Shown here in pieces: positions 55,553 through 62,419 of a stretch of DNA of 64,000 nucleotides. The notes beneath the pieces are model-generated. The model was not told the DNA's origin. It did no database searches and saw nothing but the letters and a program-made list of their open reading frames with translations. A program made the position numbers and the translations under genes. Numbering within the stretch: the first letter of the stretch is position 1; every line of letters begins with the position of its first letter. This DNA comes from Loxodes magnus (lineage: Eukaryota > Ciliophora > Karyorelictea > Loxodida > Loxodidae): assembly GCA_946699065.1 (NCBI GenBank), contig CAMPDV010000059.1, positions 434,001 through 498,000 of the forward strand, given 5' to 3'.

Positions 55553-58500
55553 ATGGAGCAAGTGTTTGAGAAAAAGGCTAGATAGTGAAAATAGCTTTAA
55601 TCCAAACGTTTTAAAACTGTTAAGCAGAGCGTTAAGCAAAAAGTAAGGAAGGAGCCTATCATTCCTGAAGTTTTGAGGAAAATCATTAAAGAACAAGGAG
55701 ATTTATCTACTAAACGATATCGCGAGGATAAAAAATCTTATTTGGGCGCTCTGAAATATTTACCTCATGCAGTGTATAAGTTACTGGAAAATATTCCAAT
55801 GCCTTGAGAATAAATGAAGAATGTTAATTGTATTTATCATACAAGTGGAGCTCTAACTTTCGTCACAGATGTCCCTAAGGTTATTGAGCCGATATACGTT
55901 GCTTAATGAGGAACTTGCTGAATATTAATGAGGAGAGAAAAAAGAGATAGAAGACATTTTAAAAGGCTTAAATTTCCTCCTTTTGATGATGAAGAACCTC
56001 CAATAGACTATGCTGATAATTTATTAAACTTTGAGCCACTTGATCCTGTTTAGATGGAACTAGATGAAAATGAAGATAATGCTGTCTTTGATTGGTTTTA
56101 TGATAATTAACCTCTAAAATACAGCAAAAAGCATGTTAATGGACCAAGCTATAAACTTTGAAATTTGTCACTTTCAGAAATGAGCAACTTATACAGGCTT
56201 GCAAATTAGCTTCTTAGTGATTTGATTGATCCCAATTATTTTTATCTTTTCAACTTAGAAAGCTTTAAGACTTCTAAATCGTTAAATCTGGCTATTCCTG
56301 GAGGTCCTAAATTTGAGCCTTTATTTAGAGATTGTCATGAAGAAGACGAAGACTGAAACGAGTTTAGTGACATAAATAAAATTGTGCAAAGGAATTAACT
56401 AAGAACAGAATACAGAGTAGCATATCCCTTTTTATATAATACAAGACCTAGAAGTGTTGATCTGTAGCCTTACCATTATCCAATTAATCTGTACATAAAA
56501 TAAGAAAATCCAACATAATCCACTTTTTACTACGATCCTATTATAAATCCCATCCCTAGCTATAAGTATAATATTCCAAAAACCTAATTCCTTAAATTAA
56601 ATATCCCTAAAGTTAAACCCTTGCTTGATGAATTACCTCTCAATTCTGAATCCTTTTCAAATGGTATTTCATTGTTTTGGGCTCCCAAGCCTTTTAACTC
56701 CCGTATAGGTAAAACTCGCAGGCCTATGGATATCCCACTAATATAAAACTGGTTTTAGGAGCATTGCTCAACTTAATATCCAGTAAAGGTTAGAGTGTCT
56801 TACTAAAGACTATTAAAGCATTGGGTTCTAAATCAGCTACATCATGCACATCCTAAATCATTGAGAAAGAGAAGACTCATAAATGCATTTGAGCATAGCA
56901 AATATTTCTAAAGAACTGAAATGGATTGGGTTGAAGCAGGATTACAAATATGCAGATAAGGGTTTAACATGCTTAACTTACTAATTCATAAGAAGAATCT
57001 TAACTATTTGCATTTAGACTACAACTTTAACTTAAAGCCTATTAAAACCTTAACCACTAAAGAGAGAAAGAAATCTAGATTTGGAAATGCTTTTCATTTG
57101 ACTAGAGAAGTTCTAAGAATGATGAAAATGGTAGTTGACGCTCATGTTTAGTATAGAATGGGTAATATTGATGCTTATCAACTGGCTGATGGATTGCAAT
57201 ATTCTCTAGCACATATTGGATAATTAACTGGTATGTATAGGTATAAATATAGACTAATGAGATAAATCAGAGCTTGCAAAGATCTTAAACATGTCATTTA
57301 TTACAGATTCAATACAGGACCAGTTGGCAAAGGTCCTGGATGTGGATTCTGAGCTCCAATGTGACGAGTATGGATGTTTTTCCTCCGAGGAATAATTCCA
57401 TTACTTGAAAGATGGCTTGGCAATCTTTTAGCTAGATAATTTGAAGGAAGACATAGTAAAAATATTGCAAAAACTGTATCAAAATAAAGGGTGGAAAGTA
57501 ATTTTGATCTAGAGCTTAGAGCAGCCATTATGCTAGATATTACTGATATGATGCCTGAAGGTGTGCGTTCTAACAAAACAAAGACTATAATGTAACACTT
57601 GAGTGAAGCTTGGAGATGTTGAAAAGCAAATATTCCATGAAAAGTTCCTGGTTTACCTGCTCCTATTGAAAATTTAATCCTAAGATACGTTAAAGCTAAA
57701 GCAGATTGGTGAACTAATGCTGCTTACTATAATAGAGAAAGGATCAGAAGAGGAGCTACTGTAGATAAAACTATTTGCAAGAAAAACTTAGGGAGACTTA
57801 CTCGTTTATATCTAAAAGCGGAATAAGAAAGATAACATAATTTCATAAAAGATGGCCCGATAATCACACCTGAGGAAGCAATAGCAATATATTCAACAGC
57901 TACTCACTGACTTGAATCTCGACGTTTTGTAGCAATTCCATTTCCTCCACTTAACTATAAGCATGATACAAAACTACTTATATTAGCTCTTGAAAGATTA
58001 AAAGAGGCTTATTCTGTGAAGAGTAGATTAAATCAATCATAAAGAGAAGAATTAGGTCTTATTGAGTAAGCATATGATAATCCACATGAAGCTTTAACTA
58101 GAATCAAAAGACATCTTCTAATGATGCGCTCTTTCAAAGAAGTAGGAATTGAGTTTATGGATCTATACAGTCATTTAACTCCAATATATGAAGTTGAACC
58201 AATTGAAAAAATAACTGATGCTTATTTGGATTAATATTTGTGGTATGAAGCTGATAAACGCAAGCTCTTTCCTAACTGGATCAAACCAAGTGATTCTGAA
58301 CCTCCACCGCTTCTTGTTTATAAATGGTGCTAAGGTATTAATAATGTTACTGATGTTTGGGACTATTAAAATGGAAGTACGACTGTTCATTTGCAAACTA
58401 CTTTGCACAAGATTTGGGAAAAAATGGACTTAACACTATTAGGAAGATTACTTAGGCTTATAGTTGATCATAATTTAGCTGACTATATGGTAGCTAAAAA

Positions 58501-61500: not shown

Positions 61501-62419
61501 AGTTCAGCCAACACCTATTTAGCAAACAAACTTAGAAGAAATAGAAAAATAAAGAACAGCTTAAAAGACAGTAACCACCAAAACTACAAACTCCCTTGGA
61601 TAAGAAATGCTCATTACTACAGAAAGTCCATATGAACAGCAGACTTTTATGTCCAGAGTTGATTGGAGAGTAAGAGCTGTTGCTACTACAAATTTATCAA
61701 TGAGATCTGCCAATGTATGAATAAATCCTGACGGAGTATCCGAAGAAGCGCCAGTTTTTGTTTTGCCAAAGAATCTTCTAAAAAAGTTGATAAGTATAAG
61801 TGATATTAGAGTTTAGATAGGAGGATATATGTTTGGTGTTGTAAAAGAAAATATTAGAGAAGTATAATGCATTGTTCTAATTCCTTAACTTGGTGGATCT
61901 AATTAAATTTAAATCCCACAGCAGTTTCCAAGCCATTCTTATCTATAAGAATTAGAACCTTTAGGGTGAATTAATACAAGCACTAGCGAAAAGCAAACAA
62001 TGAGTCACTTAGATGCGCAGTTTATGGCCAAAAAATCACTTGAGAATTAAGAGTGGGATCCATTTTAAATTGGTTGTATTAACGTATATATTCTAGCTGG
62101 ATCTATTAGTCTTGCTTGCTGAAAATTAACTCCCTAGGGAATTGAATGGGGAAGAACACCAGATTTGATAACATGAAATTCCAATTGCTTTGACAAATGC
62201 TAACTCATTTTGACAGATAAATCACTTGGTTTTTGGATGGTACCTGAAGGAGGAATGTGGAATTATAGTTTTATGGGAATTGGACACACTCAAACAATGA
62301 AATATTCCCTCGTTTTAGGAAATCCAAAGGAATTTTATCATGAAATACATCGCCCTGTTCATTTTATATGCAAAGAAGCAAGTAATGAAGAAGAAATGGA
62401 AAGCGACTTATACAATTGA
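55553..62419 (+). CDS. PRP8: PRP8 pre-mRNA splicing factor (U5 snRNP core)
   Basis: 2288 codons in one uninterrupted frame, close to the usual length of about 2300-2400. It is the scaffold at the spliceosome active site, holding U5/U6 and the splice sites. Diagnostic stretches: [61 protein letters not shown], and the C-terminal JAB1/MPN-like domain with [20 protein letters not shown] and HEIHRPVHF, ending MESDLYN-TGA. The reverse-transcriptase-like, endonuclease-like and RNase-H-like regions are present in order by similarity to PRP8. Trp is encoded by both TGG and TGA, and Gln by CAA, CAG, TAA and TAG; it is the best internal calibration of the code. Intronless, although its product removes introns of 16-23 nt in neighbouring genes. 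Lacks the long proline-rich N-terminus of some homologues. Confidence 0.98.

Follow-up and report, generated by a model that had tools for sequence, protein, structure and literature searches.

In the macronuclear (MAC) genome of Loxodes magnus, each of TAA, TAG and TGA encodes an amino acid within a conserved gene, and TGA is also the terminator. We put at about 95% the probability that this genome uses genetic code table 27 of NCBI, with suppressor tRNAs for Gln at UAA and UAG, and with UGA taken as Trp through a tRNA-Trp(CCA) or as a stop near the poly(A) tail. An earlier note on this DNA had proposed the same assignments (Gln, Gln and Trp, with TGA doubling as the stop), and they were borne out by a masked codon count in the gene for the spliceosomal protein PRP8 and by four gene ends, all of which are TGA.

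This code is not new. According to PMC11441545, karyorelicts including Loxodes (L. magnus) use table 27, in which UGA is the only stop and is also Trp provided that it precedes the poly(A) tail by a sufficient distance; the same paper reports that UGA and UAA are depleted over about 20 codons ahead of the stop, and for the table it refers to Swart et al. 2016 and Seah et al. 2022. A code in which all three stops are reassigned was described in 2016 in an unclassified karyorelict and in Condylostoma (PMC4967479). The earlier note had named code 27 as a comparator, and it is indeed the code of L. magnus. As the code has already been published for the lineage, the present work is a check and a set of parts, and contains little discovery; what we add is an unbiased codon count from one gene and a list of the parts read from the same assembly. 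The importance of the code lies in the fact that each codon can be sense, and that one codon has two meanings set by position.

Codon meaning in PRP8 and in other genes of the window

The window is the whole stretch of 64,000 nucleotides that was analysed, and the features located in it are listed in Table 1. The PRP8 frame contains 61 TAA and 20 TAG codons assigned to Gln and 19 TGA codons assigned to Trp. Its translations by table 27 and table 11 differ at 101 codons (61 TAA, 20 TAG and 20 TGA including the final one).

Table 1. Features of the window and the basis of their identification
Feature	Positions	Strand	Basis and remarks
Kinesin motor protein	5160..7799	-	Coding stretch from codon score; Pfam; in-frame TAA/TAG/TGA
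AGC-type protein kinase domain	11153..11866	+	Pfam and aligned solved chain; TGA TGA at invariant VDWW
VDWWSLG of the AGC-type kinase	11696..11716		Trp pair is TGA TGA
SPRY-domain protein stretch	12446..14191	-	In-frame TAA/TAG/TGA
C-terminal protein kinase part	23134..23421	-	Pfam; frame closed by TGA
HRDFK motif	23541..23555	-	Upstream of the C-terminal kinase part
PIAS/Siz-type SUMO ligase, MIZ/SP-RING finger	36332..37900	+	Coding stretch from codon score; Pfam
KNWQHIKC of the SUMO ligase	36635..36658		TGA TAA
KWACPVC of the SUMO ligase	37379..37399		TGA codes for the SP-RING Trp that precedes CPVC
PRP8 (spliceosomal pre-mRNA-processing factor 8)	55553..62419	+	One frame, ATG 55553 to TGA, 2288 codons
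MPWEQ of PRP8	55799..55813
12-residue motif of PRP8	55910..55945
PRP8 terminator TGA	62417..62419	+	Codon 2289, after MESDLYN
E2 ubiquitin-conjugating enzyme	62680..63177	-	TGA-to-TGA frame; Pfam; convergent with PRP8
E2 terminator TGA	62680..62682	-

The PRP8 frame was translated piecewise with X at each TAA, TAG and TGA, the pieces were aligned to solved PRP8 chains, and the residues in the human rows were counted. Owing to this masking, the alignment did not presuppose how the codons are read. Each residue in the alignment rows was checked against the DNA, with zero mismatches. The count covers all 2277 aligned residues (2-2278), and the final TGA is the sole codon of this kind outside them. 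Over these residues, the protein is 69% identical to human PRP8, with X scored as different.

The human residue was Gln in 41 of the 61 TAA columns and in 13 of the 20 TAG columns, and Trp in 16 of the 19 TGA columns (the others being Tyr in two and Asn in one). These are the residues to which the earlier note had expected the codons to align. Given the human base rates (4.9% for Gln and 2.7% for Trp), the binomial tails are about 5e-39 for TAA, 5e-13 for TAG and 7e-23 for TGA. When only columns with at least four of the six flanking residues identical were considered, the fractions were 30/39 (TAA-Gln), 9/15 (TAG-Gln) and 11/12 (TGA-Trp). For the ordinary codons, we obtained 14/29 (CAA-Gln), 6/13 (CAG-Gln) and 40/44 (TGG-Trp) over the whole alignment; as these score no better, TAA, TAG and TGA act in PRP8 like normal codons for Gln and Trp. 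Both PRP8 motifs in Table 1 were found in the DNA with the codons previously claimed for them, as were VDWWSLG (TGA TGA), KNWQHIKC and KWACPVC.

We made the same masked count for the kinase, the PIAS-type ligase, the kinesin and E2, restricting it in each case to the parts that aligned with a single best solved chain. The pooled fractions were 3/19 for TAA-Gln, 2/7 for TAG-Gln and 3/7 for TGA-Trp, and those for the ordinary codons were 5/18 (CAA-Gln), 1/6 (CAG-Gln) and 3/4 (TGG-Trp). Single codons of these four genes say little, because the proteins have diverged too far from relatives of solved structure. The claim that the kinase, the SUMO ligase and the kinesin agree with the code was upheld for TGA at VDWW of the kinase and at the Trp of the SP-RING, and the pooled agreement was weak; for the kinesin, Trp was not recovered, the single aligned TGA being opposite Val in the reference chain.

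Eight further TGA-to-TGA frames in the window were searched with Pfam; seven had no match, and one gave the C-terminal kinase part, which together with the HRDFK motif perhaps represents a second kinase gene split by short introns. The stretch 43232-46224 on the minus strand had no Pfam match, and neither ARAGORN nor Rfam (gathering threshold) detected an RNA gene in the 64-kb window. The GC skew in positions 20001-24000 (-0.29 and -0.40) was the most extreme of all 2-kb steps in the window.

Transfer RNA genes in the assembly

The assembly in which tRNA and eRF1 genes were sought comprises 7843 contigs totalling 705,730,643 bases (PMC11441545 gives 706 Mbp for the MAC assembly of L. magnus). 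A pattern for the anticodon arm and T arm of tRNAs with the anticodon UUA or CUA gave 261 matches genome-wide versus seven in the backward control, and the earlier suggestion to look for such genes was answered by their presence in quantity. Among the first 100 of the 261 matches listed, all except three belonged to two sequence families. Three copies that we examined fold as tRNAs, with the anticodons TTA, TTA and CTA. For ordinary tRNA-Gln, a pattern of the same form (UUG/CUG) gave 222 matches versus 17 backward. When the three suppressor copies were aligned with one tRNA-Gln(UUG) and one tRNA-Gln(CUG), 57 to 61 of 72 columns matched, which supports the Gln identity of the UUA and CUA tRNAs. 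Matches to the UUA/CUA pattern also occur in arrays (contigs C214 and C130).

Another pattern, the first one used for the Gln suppressors, demanded GGTTC in the T arm and was badly suited, because the tRNA-Gln genes in this genome have GAGTTC instead. It gave 18 matches in total. Four were CUA-like (TTCTAAACTGAG...), and two copies of these were examined with ARAGORN, which called one a tRNA-Arg(UCU) in another register and made no call for the other; they were dropped. Four of the other 14 matches were read at their loci, and ARAGORN called none of these a tRNA.

The tRNA-Trp(CCA) pattern gave 126 matches genome-wide versus 0 backward. In the repeated copy, A27 and C43 are unpaired and four pairs (28-42 to 31-39) form an anticodon stem of 4 bp; a tRNA-Trp(CCA) of this kind in Loxodes is cited in PMC13092985 and PMC12005148. 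Apart from one, the listed matches were confined to contigs C67 and C148, where most form tandem arrays. These span 482323-491202 on C67 and 155464-169180, perhaps beyond, on C148, the genes being spaced by about 187 and 241 bases. A CCA match on contig C12 was a degenerate copy, mismatched at 30-40; it was not called by ARAGORN and was rejected.

The earlier note had also advised looking for a tRNA with the anticodon UCA: two narrow patterns yielded no credible one, and the Trp tRNA that we found has the anticodon CCA and a 4-bp stem. The first narrow UCA pattern gave 10 matches genome-wide versus 0 backward, of which three lay within tRNA-Lys(CUU) genes and seven had no ARAGORN tRNA call. 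The second, which had the form of the Gln-suppressor pattern, gave 0 matches genome-wide, with seven in the backward control. If internal UGA were read by a cognate tRNA-Trp(UCA), and not by the tRNA-Trp(CCA) with the short stem, a gene of another shape could have escaped both searches, the patterns being narrow. However, no credible gene was obtained by either search, whereas the UUA/CUA pattern of the same form as the second one and the CCA pattern found their targets in the numbers given above. We therefore consider a cognate tRNA-Trp(UCA) improbable and take the tRNA-Trp(CCA) as the preferred candidate for reading internal UGA.

The best-scoring tRNA matches in the genome were those of tRNA-Lys(UUU), which is present in many near-identical copies, some of them in tandem arrays (loci L001-L030; contigs C942, C504, C1, C4, C12, C19, C64, C78, C91, C93, C96 and C103).

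Gene ends and eRF1

Two eRF1 genes in the assembly scored above the family cut-off, and a third match was weak and partial. The two genes (L031 and L032) are both on contig C196, separated by about 35 kb. They contain 18 and 19 in-frame TAA/TAG codons, have no TGA before the stop, and both end in TGA; in both, further TGA codons follow in frame a few codons past the stop, as if tandem stops had been retained. In an alignment of the first gene with human eRF1, in which Gln had been read in, the fractions were 6/12 for TAA-Gln and 2/6 for TAG-Gln, and for the ordinary codons 2/7 (CAA-Gln), 0/1 (CAG-Gln) and 2/4 (TGG-Trp). As support for the code, the codon counts of eRF1 are only moderately clear.

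We read the ends of PRP8, E2 and the two eRF1 genes, and all four are TGA, including two of the four genes for which the earlier note had claimed TGA as terminator (PRP8 and E2, the others being a channel and a four-TM protein). In PRP8, the final in-frame TGA read as sense is codon 2208, with TAA last occurring at codon 2217 and TAG at codon 2195; the last 60 codons of E2 have zero in-frame TAA, TAG or TGA. The last 20 codons of the four genes include no sense TGA, and TAA is absent from those of PRP8 and E2 and present once in those of each eRF1 gene. These counts, from only four genes, are compatible with the reported depletion of UGA and UAA upstream of the stop.

The Condylostoma code (table 28) gives the same amino acids for all three codons as we observed here (PMC4967479). 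It differs in that UAA and UAG also serve as stops, whereas the four ends read in Loxodes are all TGA (a small sample, 4/4) and PMC11441545 gives UGA as the only stop in L. magnus. On account of the four ends, we set table 28 aside as very unlikely for this genome. The last alternative, in which nonsense mutations mark PRP8 and the other genes as decayed pseudogenes or the in-frame stops come from sequencing errors or introns, might be suggested by 101 standard stop codons in a single PRP8 frame. It is rejected on the masked PRP8 count, where TAA and TAG match Gln and TGA matches Trp no less well than their ordinary counterparts in a protein so similar to the human one, and is contradicted also by the in-frame TAA/TAG codons of two full eRF1 genes.

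The stop-recognition motifs of eRF1 are given in PMC12153298 as GTS, Glu55, TASNIKS, Ser70 and YxCxxxF. The first Loxodes gene has the changes E55A, F56H, T58R, S60Q, S70A and Y125F (human numbering) and retains GTS, NIKS, Cys127 and Phe131. The second, read by eye, is the same at the stop-recognition sites and has R65K in addition. The changes in eRF1 that the earlier note had advised looking for are therefore present, and they include the stop-recognition residues Glu55, Ser60, Ser70 and Tyr125. E55A, S60Q and Y125F would plausibly drop the recognition of UAA and UAG.

Proposed decoding and comparison with known codes

Under table 27, dedicated tRNA-Gln(UUA) and tRNA-Gln(CUA), whose genes we observed and whose charging with Gln is presumed, would insert Gln at UAA and UAG. 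At internal UGA, Trp would most likely be inserted by the near-cognate tRNA-Trp(CCA) with four pairs in the anticodon stem; the structure was observed, and the reading of UGA is suggested by published studies of tRNAs of this kind. Near the poly(A) tail, UGA would most likely act as a stop, where, in the published model, eRF1/eRF3 together with poly(A)-binding protein can beat the Trp tRNA. A further, tentative idea is that, with S70A adding to E55A, S60Q and Y125F, the eRF1 of Loxodes recognizes UGA only, and weakly, so that termination would need a nearby poly(A) tail, and that Loxodes has converged with Blastocrithidia on a tRNA-Trp with a 4-bp stem and a change at Ser70; we regard this as possible but rather doubtful. 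With Gln suppressor tRNAs, a Trp tRNA with a short stem and an altered eRF1, the question of how sense UGA and stop UGA are distinguished becomes testable in one organism.

Our assignments (UAA and UAG for Gln, UGA for Trp or stop) are the same as those of the karyorelict code, table 27, known from Parduczia and Loxodes, and we saw no difference from it. Blastocrithidia shares with Loxodes the tRNA-Trp(CCA) with a 4-bp stem and an eRF1 altered at Ser70; the change is Ser70Gly in Blastocrithidia, where it is linked to UGA readthrough according to PMC12153298, and Ser70Ala in Loxodes. It differs in that UAA and UAG mean Glu and UAA is the stop. Amoebophrya sp. ex Karlodinium veneficum is likewise described as having all three stops reassigned and a tRNA-Trp(CCA) with a 4-bp stem (PMC12005148). 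It is a dinoflagellate, and its eRF1 has RIKS in place of NIKS, whereas NIKS is intact in Loxodes.
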